64,000 bases of DNA from Sandaracinaceae bacterium (lineage in GTDB: Bacteria > Myxococcota_A > Polyangia > Polyangiales > Sandaracinaceae). Both the position numbers and the translations under genes were made by a program. The stretch spans positions 62,001 through 126,000 of the forward strand of contig JAVJQK010000035.1 in NCBI GenBank assembly GCA_040218145.1, in the 5' to 3' direction. Each line of letters starts with the position of its first letter. The first letter of the stretch is position 1. Shown here piece after piece: positions 7,527 through 61,890 of the stretch. The notes under the pieces were generated by a model. That model was not told the origin of the DNA, searched no databases, and was given only the letters and a program-made list of their open reading frames with translations.

Positions 7527-8123
7527 GTGGAACACAGCCCGCGGGCGCGCAGGGTCGCGTGGATCGCCCTGGTGGCCTGTGCGGTGGTCGGGCTCCTCTT
7601 CGGCCTCGGTGGCCCGGGGCGCGTCCAGCTGACCTTCTGGATCCCGTGGCTCGTGATCCTGGCCGCGGTGCTCTGGGAGATCGCCTCGCCGTCAGCGCTG
7701 CTGCCCCACCCGGAGGCGTGCGAGCTCGGCGCGGACGGAGTCCAGACGGCGCGCACCTTCATCCCCTGGTCCGACGTGACCTACGTCGTGCACGAGGGGC
7801 ACCTGGTGGAGATCGGTCGGAGCGCGGGGCGCAGCAATCATCTGCACCTGGCTCAGCCGCAGAGCTTGGTGCGGGACGCCCGGGGGCGGCTCGAGCGAGC
7901 GCGCCTCCCGGTGGACGACGCGACCCCTACGCGTCGTGGCTACCGGGTCGCCGCGCAGGACACCGAGCGCGCTCTGGTCCGGGTCGTGCTGGACGGCGAG
8001 GCGCACCTCGACGAGCGCGAGAGCGCCTTCGCGCGCCTCCCGCGCGAGGACCGCGAGCTGCTGCTCGAGTCGGTCGCGGACCGACGGCTCCGCGATCGGC
8101 TCGGATCCGCCAGCCGCGGCTGA
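7527..8123 (+). CDS. Membrane protein with PH-like domain
   Basis: About 198 aa from GTG 7527, with an alternative GTG at 7500. Two hydrophobic helices (about 12-30 and 38-55) are followed by a soluble domain. This begins with the segment ADGVQTARTFIPWSDVTYVV and resembles bacterial PH-like domains (YcxB/YdbT style), which place a short beta-barrel after two membrane helices. No catalytic motif is visible. It converges on the antiporter gene with six bases between stops. The start is uncertain because neither GTG has a convincing ribosome site. Confidence 0.6.
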   Translation: MEHSPRARRVAWIALVACAVVGLLFGLGGPGRVQLTFWIPWLVILAAVLWEIASPSALLPHPEACELGADGVQTARTFIPWSDVTYVVHEGHLVEIGRSAGRSNHLHLAQPQSLVRDARGRLERARLPVDDATPTRRGYRVAAQDTERALVRVVLDGEAHLDERESAFARLPREDRELLLESVADRRLRDRLGSASRG

Positions 8124-21547: not shown

Positions 21548-23581
21548 GTGCGCTTCCCTCGCTTTCTTCTCGGCGCCGCGGCGCTGCTCCTGGTCCCGCC
21601 CGCCTGCGACGGCGTCGTCGCGGTCGACTCCGGCCCGCGCCCGATGGACGCGGGGCGCGACGCGGGGCCGCCGCCCGACAGCGGGCCCGTCGTCTGTACG
21701 CCGGAGCCGACCGGTCCGGTCGAGGCGGTGTTCGTCCTGCCCACGGGCGCCGAGGGAGAGGGCTTCTTCGATCTGCCGTGGCCGAGCGACGTCCGCCGCA
21801 CGGCGGAGGGCACGATCGACATGACCGGGTTCCCGACGCGCCGGAACCCCTTCGTGCAGCGCTACCTCGACGCGATGACCGAGCGCCTCGACGGCTTCGG
21901 CACGAACGGCGCCGTCTACTTCCGTTTCTCGCGCACGATCGACGCGGGCGCCCTCCCCGAGCGCCCCGAGCAGAGCCTCGAGGACGGCGCCGCGGTGTTC
22001 CTCGTGGACGTCGACCCGGACAGCCCCGACGTGGGCACGCGCCACCCGATCGTCCTGCACTTCCAGGACTGCCCGACGCGCTTCTGGTCGGCCCACACCC
22101 TCGCCATCCGCCCCGTGTACGGGCTCCCCCTCGCGAGCGACCGCACCTACGCCGCGGTGGTCACCACCGGGCTGAACAGCGCGGACGGCGAGCCCTTCGC
22201 GCGGAGCGCGGACTTCGAGGCCGTGCTGGCGGGCGAGAGCGACGCCGCCGTCGACGCCATCTACGGGCCCGCGCTCGACGCGCTCGAGGCGGCCGGGGTG
22301 ACGCGCGACGAGATCCTGTCGCTCGCCGTCTTCACCACGCAGGACGCGACGGGGGAGACGATCGCGATCCGGGACTGGATGCACGCGGAGTACCCCGCGC
22401 CGAGCGTGGTGACGGTGGAGACCGATCGGGTCGCGCCGCGCTACGAGCGCGTGGCCGGCACGTATGGACCGGTGCCGATCTTCCAGGCGGGGGAGCTGCC
22501 CTACGCGAACGCAGAGGACGGCGGCGACATCACCCTCGACGCCACCGGCGCGCCGACCGTGCACGGCGAGTACGACGCGCGCTTCAGCCTCACCATCCCC
22601 ACCTCGCCCATGCCGGCCGGCGGCTACCCGATCGTGCTCTACGCGCACGGCACGGGCGGCGACTTCGAGACGGTCGTCCGGAACGACACGGCCGAGAAGC
22701 TCGCCGCGCTGGGCATCGCGTCGATGGGCGTCGACCAGATCCACCACGCCGCGCGCAACCCCACCGCGACCGACCCCTCGATCCTCTTCTTCAACATCCC
22801 GAACCCACTCGCCGCCCGCGACAACAACCGCCAGAGCGCGCTCGACATCGTGCAGCAGGCGCGCCTCGTGCCGGGGCTGACCTTCGACACGGGGCTCGTG
22901 GAGCGCGACGGGATGCCCGTCCGCTTCGACCCCGCGCAGACCTGGTTCATGGGGCACTCCCAGGGCGGGCTGAACGGGCCCATCTTCCTCGCGATCGACG
23001 ACGGGGCCCGGGCCGGCGTCCTCAGCGCGGCGTCGTCCGTGATCACCCCCTCGCTCATCGAGAAGGTGGAGCCCCTGGTGATCCCCGACATCGTCGTGGC
23101 GCTGCTCAACCTGCCGGGCGGTGACTACATGCAGGCCTTCGCGCTCGAGGGCTTCACGGTGGAGCACCCCGTCGCCACCCTGCTGCAGACGTGGCTGGAG
23201 GCGAGCGACGCGAGCAACTACGCGCACCTCGTCTTCTCGAGCCCGCGCGAGGGCTTCGCGCCGAAGAGCGTGCTGATGACGGAAGGGTTGCGAGACGCGT
23301 TCAGCCCGCCCACCTCCATCGAGGCGCTCGCGGGCGCGATGCGCACGCCGGTCGTTCAGCCCGTGGGGAGCCCGCTCGTCTCCTTGCGCCTGGCCGGCGT
23401 CGACCCCGTCGCGCCGCCCGTCACGGGCAACGTCGCGGGAGGCGCCGCCACCGCCGGTCTGCTCCAGTTCCCGGACGACGGCCACTTCGCCATCTTCGAC
23501 AACGAGACCGCCGAGGCGCAGTACCTCGGCTTCTTCGAGTCCCTCCTCGAAGGCGGCCCCGGGACCATCCCGTCGCCATAG
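21548..23581 (+). CDS. Alpha/beta-hydrolase lipoprotein (lipase-like)
   Basis: 677 aa from GTG 21548. The signal peptide ends in lipobox PPAC (Cys20), followed by an Asp/Gly/Pro tether. The N-terminal domain (about 55-330) starts FFDLPWPSDVRRTAEGTIDM, similar to the N-terminal region of bacterial virulence-type lipases. A hydrolase domain follows, with YAHGTGGDFETVV as a possible oxyanion segment, S471 in the nucleophile elbow GHSQGG, and H646 in DDGHFAIF. It is probably an envelope-attached esterase or lipase; the substrate is unknown. The stop codon's last base begins a perfect hairpin. Confidence 0.78.
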   Translation: MRFPRFLLGAAALLLVPPACDGVVAVDSGPRPMDAGRDAGPPPDSGPVVCTPEPTGPVEAVFVLPTGAEGEGFFDLPWPSDVRRTAEGTIDMTGFPTRRNPFVQRYLDAMTERLDGFGTNGAVYFRFSRTIDAGALPERPEQSLEDGAAVFLVDVDPDSPDVGTRHPIVLHFQDCPTRFWSAHTLAIRPVYGLPLASDRTYAAVVTTGLNSADGEPFARSADFEAVLAGESDAAVDAIYGPALDALEAAGVTRDEILSLAVFTTQDATGETIAIRDWMHAEYPAPSVVTVETDRVAPRYERVAGTYGPVPIFQAGELPYANAEDGGDITLDATGAPTVHGEYDARFSLTIPTSPMPAGGYPIVLYAHGTGGDFETVVRNDTAEKLAALGIASMGVDQIHHAARNPTATDPSILFFNIPNPLAARDNNRQSALDIVQQARLVPGLTFDTGLVERDGMPVRFDPAQTWFMGHSQGGLNGPIFLAIDDGARAGVLSAASSVITPSLIEKVEPLVIPDIVVALLNLPGGDYMQAFALEGFTVEHPVATLLQTWLEASDASNYAHLVFSSPREGFAPKSVLMTEGLRDAFSPPTSIEALAGAMRTPVVQPVGSPLVSLRLAGVDPVAPPVTGNVAGGAATAGLLQFPDDGHFAIFDNETAEAQYLGFFESLLEGGPGTIPSP

Positions 23582-23620
23582 CAGGCAGGTGAAGAACGCG
23601 AGCGTTCTTCACCTGCCTGC
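23581..23620. terminator. Perfect 18-bp stem hairpin between convergent genes
   Basis: Bases 23581-23598 are exactly complementary to 23603-23620 with a CGAG tetraloop. It starts in the stop codon of the hydrolase gene. No T-tract follows (CCCCTTGCCC), so if it terminates it does so by stem stability, possibly in both directions. The remaining bases to 23732 hold nothing recognised. Confidence 0.7.
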
Positions 23621-23732
23621 CCCTTGCCCTTGCCCGTGCCCACGACTCAATAGCTCCCGGGGAGCGCGCCTCTGCAGAAGAAGCTCGGCTACTTCTCCGC
23701 CGCGGCGGTGATCTCGAGCCAACGAGCCGCGG

Positions 23733-33028: not shown

Positions 33029-33577
33029 CTACTGTACCGGCAGGACGAGGGCGAGCGTGCGGCGATCCGGCATGCAGGCCTCGGGGGTGCACACCGCGAA
33101 GTCCACGACCGCGGTCACGGTGTGCTCTCCGGCCGCGCTCGGGGTGACCGGCACGTCGAAGCGCGCCACCTCCTCGGTGAACTCCTCCGCGTCGTCGTTG
33201 CCGAGCGGGGCCGCGGGCGCCTGGACACCCTCCGGCGCGGTCACGGCGATGGTCATCGGGAAGTCCTGGTTGACGTGGTAGCGACCGCGGGGCGTCAGGC
33301 GCACCTCGAAGCTGGCCTCCTGCCCGGGCTGGTACGGCCCCGCGGCGCTCGCGCGCAGCTCGAACGTGGGGTCCTCCACCACGGGCCCCGCCTCTTCGTC
33401 GGCCGCCTCGTCACCTTCGGGGGCCGCCTCGGGCTCGCGCTCGGCCTGCGCGGTCTCGTCCGCGCTGGACGTCGTCTCCTCGCCGCAGCCCGTGAGCCAG
33501 CCCGTGAGCGAGGCCGAGAGCAGCAGCGCGCCGAGCAGGGTCTCCATCCGCGCCGTCCGGATCAGCGTCTTCCTCAT
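33029..33577 (-). CDS. Lipoprotein heading the PrkA-like operon
   Basis: 182 aa from ATG 33577, behind GGAG at good spacing; ATG 33592 and ATG 33547 are possible too. The signal peptide ends in lipobox LTGC. An acidic Glu/Ala tether follows, then a beta-rich domain (about 65-182) with GQEASFEVRLTPRGRYHVN and FAVCTPEACMPDRRTLALV. The paired cysteines in VCTPEACMP recall the redox segment of the N-terminal DsbD-type domain; this likeness is weak. Its stop lies five bases before the kinase start. It may link the cytosolic kinase operon with the envelope state. Confidence 0.65.
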   Translation of the reverse strand: MRKTLIRTARMETLLGALLLSASLTGWLTGCGEETTSSADETAQAEREPEAAPEGDEAADEEAGPVVEDPTFELRASAAGPYQPGQEASFEVRLTPRGRYHVNQDFPMTIAVTAPEGVQAPAAPLGNDDAEEFTEEVARFDVPVTPSAAGEHTVTAVVDFAVCTPEACMPDRRTLALVLPVQ

Positions 33578-33606
33578 CTGGTCGATCTCCATTCTTTCGC
33601 GTGCAG

Positions 33607-33612
33607 TATGGT
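33607..33612 (+). promoter_or_regulatory. -10-like element of 33619 lipoprotein gene
   Basis: TATGGT is followed by six bases and GTG 33619. This favours 33619 over GTG 33601, which would precede the promoter. Confidence 0.45.
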
Positions 33613-33618
33613 CCACGC

Positions 33619-34260
33619 GTGCGGGTTTCGACACCCATCTACCTCGCCCTGCTCCTGGCCGCTTGCGGCGCGCCGCCGCCCTGCGCCCGCTCGACCGAGT
33701 GTGCGTCGGGCCGCGTCTGCGGCCTCGACGGTCGCTGCGTGCGCCTCGGCTCGCCGGCCGGGGCGCGCTTCGCCGGCTCGCGGTGGCTCTCGCCGGTGGA
33801 CTGGGGCGTCGCGGGCCGCCGCCGCGCGCTGGGAGACGGGATGCCGCTGGGAGGTCGCGCGGCCACCGAGGGCCTCGTCGCGTTCGGGCCCATGCCCGCC
33901 TCGAGCGAGATCTTGCGCGCGCTGCTCGTCGTCCAGCCCCTGGATCCGCACACCCGGATCGACGCGCGCCACGAGGTGGTCGTCGAGCACGTCGAGCCGT
34001 TCCGAGGCGGCGCCCTCCCCGCTCGACCCGGCGCGGGGCCGCTCCGCTTCGCGGCCGGCCGTCACGCGCTCGCGCCCGGCCCGGTCCTGCCCCTCCGCAT
34101 CGACGTGACCGAGGCCGCGCGCGCCGCGGCGGATCGCGCGGACCGGCGCTTCCACCTGCTCCTGCGGCTCCGGGAGGGCAGCGCGCGTCCGCTCGTGCTC
34201 GCTTCCCCGTGGGCGATCGATCCCCAGCTTCGGCCCCGCGTCGAGCTGATGCTGCACTGA
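33619..34260 (+). CDS. Predicted lipoprotein of unknown function
   Basis: 213 aa from GTG 33619. A very short signal peptide ends in lipobox LAAC (Cys15). A small Cys-rich segment (CARSTECASGRVCGLDGRC) resembles a compact disulfide or EGF-like knot. The remainder is a beta-rich domain with HEVVVEHVEPFRGG and FHLLLRLREG. No family was recognised. It is divergent from the PrkA-operon lipoprotein. Eight bases after its stop a long palindrome begins. Confidence 0.6.
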   Translation: MRVSTPIYLALLLAACGAPPPCARSTECASGRVCGLDGRCVRLGSPAGARFAGSRWLSPVDWGVAGRRRALGDGMPLGGRAATEGLVAFGPMPASSEILRALLVVQPLDPHTRIDARHEVVVEHVEPFRGGALPARPGAGPLRFAAGRHALAPGPVLPLRIDVTEAARAAADRADRRFHLLLRLREGSARPLVLASPWAIDPQLRPRVELMLH

Positions 34261-34268
34261 CCGCTTCC

Positions 34269-34431
34269 AGCAGTCCGTTGAAGAACCTCGCTCCTCGTCT
34301 CTCGGGCGGGACGACCCGCCTCTCGGCCCGTGTCTCCTCGGCAATGCTGAAGCATTCCCTCGTCGCCCCGAACCGAGAATCGGGCCGTCGCGCCGCGAGA
34401 TCCTTCGGGCTCGGTACTTCAACGGCCTGCT
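34269..34431. repeat. 163-bp imperfect palindrome (MITE- or attenuator-like)
   Basis: The outer 19-bp arms 34269-34287 and 34413-34431 are complementary at 17 positions. The symmetry continues inward around position 34350, where AATGCT-GA-AGCATT forms the tip. Intermediate stretches also pair, for example TCTCGG (34321-34326) with CCGAGA (34373-34378), and ACGACCCG with CGGGCCGT allowing one mismatch. Transcribed, it would fold into one long interrupted hairpin. It fills most of the 230-base gap before serA and encodes nothing obvious. It could be a non-autonomous mobile element, a REP-type repeat or a leader structure. Confidence 0.65.
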
Positions 34432-34490
34432 AACGCATTGCGTCACGCCTGCACTTGCCTTACCTCGCAGGCCTGACTCGGAGGGTCACC

Positions 34491-35696
34491 GTGAGCAAAG
34501 GTCGCATTCTACTTCTCGAGAACATCCATCCCGGAGCGATGGAGAACCTGGAGTCCGCCGGCTACGAGGTGGACCTGCTGTCCAAGGCGCTCGGCGAAGA
34601 GGACCTCGCCAGGGAGCTGAAGGACTGCGTCGCGGTGGGCATCCGCTCCAAGACCCACGTCACGCCGGCCGTGCTCGAGGCGGCCGAGGGCCTGCGCGCG
34701 GTCGGCGCCTTCTGCATCGGGACCAACCAGATCGCGCTCGACGACGCGAACCGACGTGGCGTCCCCGCCTTCAACGCGCCCTTCTCGAACACGCGCTCGG
34801 TGGCCGAGATGGTCATGGCCGACATCGTCTTCCTCGCGCGGCGGCTCGGTGACCGGAACAACCAGATGCACCGTGGCGTGTGGAAGAAGTCCGCGACGGG
34901 CAGCCACGAGGTGCGGGGCAAGACGCTCGGCATCATCGGCTACGGGCACATCGGGCGGCAGGTCGGCGTGCTCGCGGAGGCCTTCGGCCTTCAGGTGCTC
35001 TTCCACGACATCTCGAACCAGCTCCCCATGGGCAACAACCGCCCGTCGGTGGGGCTCGAGGACCTGCTCGAGGCGAGCGACTTCGTCTCGCTGCACGTCC
35101 CGGCCACCTCGCTCACCGAGAACATGATCGGCGAGGCGCAGATCCGGCGCATGAAGAAGGGCGGCTACCTGCTGAACCTCAGCCGCGGCAACGTCGTCGT
35201 CATCGAGGCGCTCGCGGCCGCGCTGAAGGACGGCCACCTCGCGGGCGCCGCGGTGGACGTGTACCCGAAGGAGCCGAAGACGAACGACGAGCCCTTCGAG
35301 AGCGAGTTGCAGGGCCTGTCGAACGTGATCCTCAGCCCCCACGTCGGCGGCTCGACCCAGGAGGCGCAGGTGTCGATCGGCCAGGAGGTCTCGACCGCCC
35401 TCATCCGCTACCTCGACTTCGGGATCACCGCGGGCGCGGTCAACGTGCCCACCGCCGACCTCGCCCCGCGGGAGGGCACGCACCGGATCCAGCACTTCCA
35501 TCGCAACGTGCCCGGCGTGCTCGGGGACGTGCACCGCATCGTCGCCAACCACGGCGCCAACGTGGTCGGTCAGGTCCTCGCGACCGATCCGCAGGTCGGC
35601 TACCTGGTGATGGACGTCGCGGGCGGCGAAGGCGCGGCCATCGTGCAGGACGTCGCCGCGCTGAAGACCACGGTGCGCGCGCGCCTGCTCTACTGA
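34491..35696 (+). CDS. serA: D-3-phosphoglycerate dehydrogenase
   Basis: 401 aa from GTG 34491, with CGGAGGG as ribosome site. It oxidises 3-phosphoglycerate with NAD, the first step of serine synthesis. The nucleotide-binding block is GIIGYGHIGRQVG. Catalytic surroundings are LNLSRGNVVV (Arg), AVDVYPKEP (Glu) and ILSPHVGGST (His). The C-terminal ACT domain (about 330-401, FHRNVPGVLGDVHRIV) indicates allosteric serine feedback, as in the E. coli-type enzyme without the large inserted domain. A long palindrome precedes it and could act in its leader. Confidence 0.95.
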   Translation: MSKGRILLLENIHPGAMENLESAGYEVDLLSKALGEEDLARELKDCVAVGIRSKTHVTPAVLEAAEGLRAVGAFCIGTNQIALDDANRRGVPAFNAPFSNTRSVAEMVMADIVFLARRLGDRNNQMHRGVWKKSATGSHEVRGKTLGIIGYGHIGRQVGVLAEAFGLQVLFHDISNQLPMGNNRPSVGLEDLLEASDFVSLHVPATSLTENMIGEAQIRRMKKGGYLLNLSRGNVVVIEALAAALKDGHLAGAAVDVYPKEPKTNDEPFESELQGLSNVILSPHVGGSTQEAQVSIGQEVSTALIRYLDFGITAGAVNVPTADLAPREGTHRIQHFHRNVPGVLGDVHRIVANHGANVVGQVLATDPQVGYLVMDVAGGEGAAIVQDVAALKTTVRARLLY

Positions 35697-61359: not shown

Positions 61360-61890
61360 TCAGAGCGTCCGGTACCAGAGCACGAGCCCCAGCATCCCCG
61401 TCCCGAAGGCCGCCATCCACAGATCTCGCTCGACCTGCAGCAGCATCGAGAGCACGCAGCCGCCGGTCCCGAGGGCCATCATGCCGTAGCCGATCCAGGC
61501 GCGCTTCCTCTTGTCCGGCACGACGTGCTCGAGCAGCGCGCCTTCGATCGGCATGCCCTCCTGGACGCTCTTCAGAGGGGAGCTTTGCCGTGGATCGGCG
61601 ACTTCATCGAGAGCGCCGCCTCGGTCCGCGCGGCCGCGCGAAGGCGCCTCCGCGCCGCGCTCGAACAGCTCCGCCCAGCGCCCCATGACGAGCCGGATCG
61701 CGAAGACCGGGAACGCGAACGCGGCCCCGCCGACCGCGGTGATCCCGAGGCCCCAGGCCAGGGGCTCCCCGCTCCCTCCCGTCGACATCGCCCACCCGCC
61801 GAGGCCGCTGACGAGCGCGCCGAGGCTCAGGATGAGCCACGCGACTTGTCGGCCCCCCTCGCGGTCGTTGCGCTCCTTCTCCGCTGACAC
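61360..61890 (-). CDS. Four-helix membrane protein, unknown
   Basis: 176 aa from GTG 61890. Two hydrophobic segments (about 16-36 and 44-68) precede a polar cytosolic-type loop (70-125). Two further helices (about 130-150 and 156-172) follow. The loop is rich in Arg/Glu and has no recognisable motif. TACGGT lies six bases before the start, and TGGACG lies 17 bases further upstream as a possible -35. Confidence 0.6.
   Translation of the reverse strand: MSAEKERNDREGGRQVAWLILSLGALVSGLGGWAMSTGGSGEPLAWGLGITAVGGAAFAFPVFAIRLVMGRWAELFERGAEAPSRGRADRGGALDEVADPRQSSPLKSVQEGMPIEGALLEHVVPDKRKRAWIGYGMMALGTGGCVLSMLLQVERDLWMAAFGTGMLGLVLWYRTL

Follow-up and report, generated by a model that had tools for sequence, protein, structure and literature searches.

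The 163-bp palindrome that stands in front of serA in a 64,000-nucleotide stretch of the genome of a Sandaracinaceae bacterium (hereafter the window) is very probably a copy of a non-autonomous, MITE-like transposable element of ~163 bp that is moved in trans at TA. The element is present in many copies with fixed ends, differs in its insertion sites between the two genomes of the species, prefers a particular target and lands in stop codons; it has homologues across the order in which pairing is conserved, and the core and the ends of the element are decoupled from one another. At serA it is a neighbour by insertion and not a regulator built for that gene.

The earlier note, made from the letters alone, had described an imperfect palindrome with 19-bp termini that is symmetric about 34350, and this description proved accurate throughout: the palindrome ahead of serA is real, the interval 34269-34431 is exact, the centre lies at 34350, 17 of the 19 terminal positions match (the mismatches are at positions 6 and 16), and the tip, AATGCT-GA-AGCATT, is a perfect 6-bp stem (Table 1). 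Folded as RNA, the plus strand reaches -81.3 kcal/mol (mean of the shuffles -59.6, z -4.9) and the minus strand -103 kcal/mol (z -8.3); none of 200 shuffles was as good in either case. This strand difference persists with DNA folding parameters (-52.3 vs -43.6), and the covariance model described below scores the serA copy at 161.9 bits on the minus strand and 78.8 bits on the plus strand. An ORF at 33366-34433 is open in one frame through the element and was not scored as a gene by a codon-usage gene finder. The element has no coding capacity, and this, together with its 163 bp and its many dispersed copies, agrees with what is expected of a MITE; MITEs are described as short, 70-300 bp (PMC3733652).

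Table 1. Coordinates of the element, its parts and its neighbours (positions in the window; E+ is the better-folding strand).
Feature	Position	Strand	Remarks
Complete mobile palindromic element, 163 bp	34269..34431	-	Better-folding strand (E+) is the minus strand
Terminal inverted repeat, window-left arm	34269..34287	+	17/19 match with right arm
Terminal inverted repeat, window-right arm	34413..34431	-	From arm comparison and genome arm places
Left junction dinucleotide CA	34268..34269	.	TA in 31/43 left ends of the genome's copies
Right junction dinucleotide TA	34431..34432	.	TA in 25/36 right ends of the genome's copies
Hairpin tip AATGCT-GA-AGCATT	34343..34356	.	G006 stem AATCC/GGATT is a compensated change
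Tandem G.A motif 1, 5' half	34411..34412	-	Partner 34288-34289
Tandem G.A motif 1, 3' half	34288..34289	-	Partner 34411-34412
Tandem G.A motif 2, 5' half	34401..34402	-	Partner 34298-34299; G.A/G.G in G006
Tandem G.A motif 2, 3' half	34298..34299	-	Partner 34401-34402
Tandem G.A motifs 3 and 4, 5' halves	34360..34364	-	GA-C-GA on minus strand
Tandem G.A motifs 3 and 4, 3' halves	34335..34339	-	GA-G-GA on minus strand
Upstream gene, function not assigned	33739..34260	+	Longest ORF from 33601; TGA stop 8 bp before element; no NCBIfam match
serA, phosphoglycerate dehydrogenase	34491..35696	+	NCBIfam PRK11790.1, 573.2 bits, cut-off 404
Site empty in G000, occupied in G001	61812..61834	-	L075 vs L168; junction not clean

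In the source genome (G000), at least 40 matches to the element were scored (40 of 144 candidates scored), and 59 stretches fetched from it hold 57 places at E ≤ 1e-15. Contig ends cut 28 of these places, which can be paired halves of one copy, as L031 and L032 are, so the copy number is 43-57; such cuts are expected of a repeat that breaks assemblies, and breaks between contigs in these assemblies are explained by the family. In the second genome of the species (G001) there were 41 matches (40 of 113 candidates scored), and its copy at serA is identical to that in the source genome. The earlier note had suggested searching with the terminal arms, where many copies with similar centres would mean a mobile repeat. 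A 15-base arm pattern at ≤2 mismatches occurs at 112 places in the source genome, whereas its reversed control occurs at 5; the centres of many copies are similar. The boundaries agree in 26 near-complete copies from the two genomes, apart from L018, which runs into a contig end, and L028, which has different terminal bases. Since these boundaries coincide with those of the palindrome, the interval at serA is itself the mobile unit. Those 26 copies are ~92-96% identical to the serA copy, save for its identical counterpart; older copies are 79-89% identical, and some copies are degenerate or carry an internal deletion. Copies adjoin many different genes, their flanks are unlike, and their inverted repeats terminate at fixed ends as in a MITE. 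One exact apical-core pattern had no match in viral contigs, and blastn at E ≤ 1e-3 found no match in plasmids.

The bases at the junctions reveal the target preference. Of the ends in the source genome, 31 of 43 on the left and 25 of 36 on the right have TA, with C preceding it in 23 of the 31 and G following it in 17 of the 25; both junctions have TA in 11 of the 23 copies with both ends, and the serA copy has CA at the left. CTAG, within which IS630 reportedly prefers the TA, occurs once in the window, compared with ~41 occurrences expected from trinucleotides and 161 from base composition, and 37 of the 85 CTAG in the 59 stretches are element junctions. A 4-bp duplication of CTAG in the source genome was considered and is disfavoured because left ends with NTAG (N not C) coexist with right ends with CTAG. 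A coding frame enters 20 of 76 ends (codon-usage score >25), 16 times in the frame of the TAG, four times in the second frame and never in the third, and the excess of the TAG frame is significant against one third (16/20, p 3e-5). Insertion into a TAG or TAA stop codon leaves the stop rebuilt. Copies often land in such codons because TA(G/A) in frame can only be a stop codon, and because CTAG is scarce in the window. A transposase acting in trans would recognise the terminal inverted repeats (~18-20 bp) and insert the element at TA, preferably within CTAG, duplicating the TA, and an insertion into a stop codon would rebuild it (TA plus the element's G giving TAG) and would thus be harmless.

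Comparison of the two genomes showed occupied and empty sites. Flank matching paired 23 of the 57 places in the source genome with a locus in the second genome. Seventeen sites at which no shared copy had been seen (11 from the source genome and 6 from the second) were picked and tested by looking for their joined flanks in the other genome; seven were empty there (2 of 11 and 5 of 6, respectively), and the rest were occupied or not judgeable, in part because the second genome is only 84% complete. At the cleanest site, L083/L167, the empty site is a single CTAG and the occupied site holds the element between two CTAG ends. The other six have unclean junctions: L077 and L025 show a difference of one or two bases next to the TA, degeneration is seen at L075, L080, and L020, and the right end is missing from L086. 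Clean duplication is thus seen directly in the species at one site only. At L019/L155 the other genome has an internally deleted copy at the same site. Seven polymorphic sites, one of them with a clean junction, are what would be expected of a MITE that duplicates its target; we infer the movement from two draft genomes.

Several further repeats and partial copies were noted along the way. Two copies at unrelated sites (L058:2959-3041 and L056:2874-2956) both end at position 85, which is the hairpin tip, and the L056 site is common to both genomes; this shared endpoint suggests loss or copying that terminates at the tip. In L012 (contig C93 of the source genome), the ~70 bp adjoining the copy at 7776-7938 (GCTAGTGCGAGATCCATCCCGGTAGAAGG...) also occur, over 66-72 bases, at nine places in the second genome; the element in L012 thus has a second repeat as its direct neighbour. 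Another repeat of the source genome, which is CTAG-rich and reads GGGGCTAG..GCGCCGCAGGC .. CTGACTAGAATTGCTAGGCCC, is found at L013:6-150, L019:1362-1590, and L031:3091-3250. In the window, positions 23580-23621 form a 42-bp near-perfect hairpin, AGCAGGCAGGTGAAGAACGC and its complement, that follows CAT and matches the model at E 1e-4; it is perhaps a deletion derivative of the element or a relative with other ends.

One or more transposases probably move the element in trans. In the places followed, neither an autonomous relative nor a transposase with matching ends was found: there was no autonomous element with such ends in the source genome among the 100 of 112 arm places listed, and none, judged by the ends, in the 20 stretches of G035 and 15 of G042 around unpaired arms. 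The arms followed in these two genomes were truncated copies, contig-end copies or bare arms, and the ORFs near the isolated arms L250 and L233 are not transposase-like by inspection. For many bacterial repeats a matching autonomous partner was not sought or not found (PMC2229807). DDE_3 (IS630-type) matches number one in the source genome, two in the second genome and none in G006, a genome of another genus with 40 scored copies; a DDE_3 gene, which would be expected in carriers of a MITE mobilised by IS630/Tc1-mariner, was thus not found in G006. The sole DDE_3 match in the source genome, L071 (C35:594-1031), lies near the contig start, on the same contig as the window, and is without element ends.

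Two candidate parents were examined and rejected. DDE_3 is present in 7 of 10 family genomes, at 21 loci, and at none of them does an arm pair flank the gene; five arm-like stretches with 3 substitutions were seen, in 3 of the 21 loci. A parent in C93, where two inverted copies lie 7.5 kb apart, was set aside as well, the ORFs listed there looking like ordinary chromosomal genes. TA and the preference for CTAG would fit IS630/Tc1-mariner, but one end type of G029 has 3-bp TTA/TAA repeats, which point to another type of transposase; IS5-like families may be candidates for these. DDE-type transposases acting in trans, different ones in different lineages and for the two end types of G029, would presumably account for the movement.

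The two strands of the element differ in how well they fold. On the plus strand, the mismatches of the source-genome consensus comprise 15 pyrimidine-pyrimidine (13 of them C.T), 3 purine-purine, 5 A.C, and 1 G.T; in G006, whose copies are ~72% identical and of the same length, they comprise 15 pyrimidine-pyrimidine, 2 purine-purine, 4 A.C, and 2 G.T. On the minus strand the mismatches are therefore mostly purine-purine, several of them tandem G.A, and this strand folds better: it was the more stable in 26/26 and 18/18 copies, respectively, and E+ was the more stable strand in 17/17 genomes (one copy each). Between the source genome and G006, 21 of 26 unpaired inner columns are identical compared with 61 of 98 paired columns (Fisher p 0.10); without the four loop columns, 20 of 22 unpaired columns are identical (p 0.011). 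In an alignment of 46 copies (A1), chosen from among those with both ends, 25 of 69 pairs have changed on both sides, compared with 2-9 when the partners are slid, and 88.9% of cells are paired, compared with 36-44%. Counted by eye in 33 aligned rows, the apical pair of G.A motifs takes the form GACGAG facing GAGGAG in 13 and the form GAACCGAG (once GAATCGAG) facing CGAGCGTGAG in 11; hand pairing of the latter variant places two G.A motifs three pairs apart, and the remaining 9 rows fit neither pattern exactly. No part of the element is better kept than the inner hairpin, which probably has a role in the life cycle of the element itself, either as folded RNA or as a single DNA strand.

The family extends well beyond the species. 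A covariance model (R1), trained on copies from the two genomes of the species and G006, so that homologues found elsewhere are biased to its fold and its E-values are rough, gave matches in 21 of the order's 144 sampled genomes, representing 18 of 70 genera and 7 family labels. Single matches (G017, G039, G097, G128, G133, G142, and G143) may be partly chance, so this breadth rests on the ten genomes besides the training genomes that have at least three matches. Lengths of the best matches read range from 153 to 171 bp, with 36 of 37 at 157-171. Among 33 copies whose genera did not contribute to the training, paired cells amount to 89.4% and both partners have changed in 66 of 68 pairs, compared with 37.6-41.3% and 32-42, respectively, when slid; because the alignment was fitted to the model, the slid versions are the relevant control. 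The threshold for this alignment (A4), E ≤ 1e-9, excluded the second match at L199 as well as minus-strand matches; L208 and L209, both weak, were also omitted. The L199 locus (G053) has model matches at 1340-1503 and 1501-1667 that lie back to back on opposite strands and have different arms, perhaps because one element was inserted at the edge of another.

The ends of the element do not travel with its core. Arm identity was measured over 18 bases with shifts of up to 3, for which the background mean is 0.40 and the 99th percentile 0.61. In 17 genomes (one copy each) the two arms are complementary at 14-18 of 18 positions within the genome, whereas the arms of the 16 genomes other than the source genome match the source arm at only 4-16 positions. 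The best evidence for separable ends and core comes from pairwise identities among three genomes: between G035 and G042, which belong to different families, core identity is 73-76% and arm identity stays at background level in each of the 20 pairs compared (0.33-0.50), whereas G035 and G039, also from different families, share an arm (0.94) and have cores that are 63-64% identical in the two pairs listed, against a core background of 0.53, G039 being a single-match genome and its match possibly in part chance. In G029, of which 15 of 16 matches were read, two end types are attached to cores that are 85-88% identical. Of the 11 copies read of type A (GAGCGTGTTTAATAAGG), seven carry TTA or TAA on both sides; of the four read of type B (GAGCCCGTCTCATAAAT), two have matching dinucleotides at their ends (TA and CA), both tallies made by eye. 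The two types share 11 of their first 15 bases (arm identity 0.61) and so are diverged relatives, not a foreign pair, and do not prove different transposases in G029, although their duplications differ (3 bp in type A, 2 bp in type B). The arms of G042 resemble type B, and TA is present at both ends in 5 of 5 copies read.

Other explanations of the palindrome account for parts of these results. The earlier note had considered an attenuator or processing site in the serA leader. With the upstream gene ending 8 bp before the element and the probable GTG start of serA following 59 bp after it, read-through RNA would carry a hairpin of -81 kcal/mol, and both genomes of the species have a copy there; nevertheless, a cis-regulatory RNA of serA (attenuator, riboswitch, or processing site) is refuted as the palindrome's explanation, and we give it hardly any weight. 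There are 57 places in the genome, beside many different genes, the sites differ between strains, and the better-folding strand is antisense to serA. No copy was found in 7 of 10 family genomes by DNA search, or in 6 of 10 by the covariance model, some of these genomes being incomplete; judged by this absence in the genome-wide search for the element, its occurrence is not tied to serA homologues. Rfam gave no gathering-score match in the window and none at E ≤ 1 for two copies, and a consensus scan of 34200-34540 found no terminator-like or sigma-70-like site, although myxobacterial promoters may differ. The size and ends had also been likened to a MITE or a REP-type element, of which the MITE-type mobile repeat stands, with its 112 arm places and many similar centres, and the REP type does not. 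That the element is of REP/BIME or PATE type and moves as single-stranded DNA by a Y1 (HUH, RAYT/IS200-IS605) transposase is improbable, even if such a transposase would explain both the strand-specific hairpin, seen with RNA and DNA parameters, and the TAG ends, and even if GTAG-REPs likewise give stop codons to flanking genes (PMC3733652). Two Y1_Tnp matches are present in each genome of the species, but there are none in the carriers G006 and G080 and 11 in G003, where no copy was found; the presence of the element thus does not follow Y1_Tnp (RAYT-type) genes. To our knowledge, insertion of the IS200/IS605 type makes no target duplication, whereas the element has inverted ends of ~18-20 bp, beside which target bases are duplicated (TA in all 5 copies read in G042 and TTA/TAA in 7 of 11 type A copies in G029). 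At 163 bp, it is also not the 20-40-bp palindrome with a GTAG/CGTC tag and a link to Y1_Tnp that characterises REPs and RAYTs.

An old, immobile repeat that spreads by recombination or segment duplication would be compatible with the degenerate and internally deleted copies and with the unclean junctions at most empty sites. We disfavour this reading and consider it very unlikely, as the flanks of copies are unlike, L083/L167 joins its flanks precisely, and TTA is matched by TTA and TAA by TAA in 7 of 11 type A copies in G029. It is conceivable, and we put it forward tentatively, that selection acts on the inner hairpin, as a module of structured RNA or single-stranded DNA that would be of use to the element or to the host and that different transposon ends have carried. 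The decoupling of core and ends, the identity of the unpaired inner columns between genera, the compensated pair changes and the greater stability of E+ in every genome compared speak for it. The orientation of the element relative to neighbour genes, however, shows no significant bias toward transcription of E+: among the 26 sites with both neighbouring genes there were 11 (-,-), 7 (-,+), 4 (+,+), and 4 (+,-), that is, 11 tandem sites against and 4 with (p 0.12). Copying from arm to arm, a mechanism by which palindromes are altered, could also yield paired changes without selection, though not the G.A mismatches that are kept, and the type A and B ends of G029 are still related. As a possibility we hold with reserve, the element may owe its heritable identity to the inner hairpin, with a single functional strand built on tandem G.A pairs, and not to its transposon ends, and may persist across the order by taking up different terminal repeats time and again, and with them different transposases and target duplications; the folded strand, as RNA or single-stranded DNA, might then benefit its copies, for example, by recruiting a protein or by entry at the replication fork.

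ERIC sequences are imperfect palindromes over their whole length, and the ends of Correia/NEMIS elements are of one type. ERIC (also IRU or RU-1; enterobacteria, 127 bp) resembles our element in being short, with terminal inverted repeats, a target site duplication and terminal TA, in its many intergenic copies, and in its transcripts with long stem-loops (PMC2229807). Compared by description only, our element is unlike ERIC in being 163 bp long and GC-rich, with terminal inverted repeats of ~18-20 bp instead of 7 bp, in its preference for CTAG, and in ends that vary between lineages while the core is kept. RUP of Streptococcus pneumoniae, moved in trans by IS630-Spn1, is likewise small and non-autonomous with a TA target (PMC2229807), and the CTAG preference of our element matches that of IS630 as given in the title of Tenzen and Ohtsubo (1991), cited in PMC2170065. 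RUP, however, has a resident IS630 with similar ends, whereas no such insertion sequence was found for our element in the places followed and G006 is without DDE_3. GTAG-REPs and REPINs with their RAYTs are similar in being extragenic palindromes whose ends supply TAG stops, but REPs are 20-40 bp long (PMC3733652) and linked to RAYTs, unlike a 163-bp element with inverted ends, duplicated target bases and no link to Y1_Tnp. Correia/NEMIS of Neisseria shares terminal inverted repeats, terminal TA and hairpin transcripts with our element and differs from it in its sizes (107 and 155 bp), its host, its 24-bp terminal inverted repeats, and the IHF motif of the 155-bp form (PMC2229807). In the open-licence literature, titles and abstract beginnings on myxobacterial, Sandaracinaceae, and Sorangium repeats or MITEs described no such repeat; this is a MITE-like palindrome family spread over an order that was not found described in the open-licence literature searched.

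What makes this family interesting is a strand-specific core that outlasts its ends; the location at serA is incidental. Bacterial MITEs are usually regarded as remnants of insertion sequences that are defined by their ends. In this element the interior is better kept and folds better on one strand across the order, while the ends and target duplications change. The role of a MITE interior thereby becomes testable, with compensatory mutants and mutants of the G.A mismatches. The family also reveals a harmless landing niche for such elements, stop codons and rare CTAG sites, and the covariance model allows repeats of this kind to be annotated as such rather than being mistaken for regulatory RNAs.
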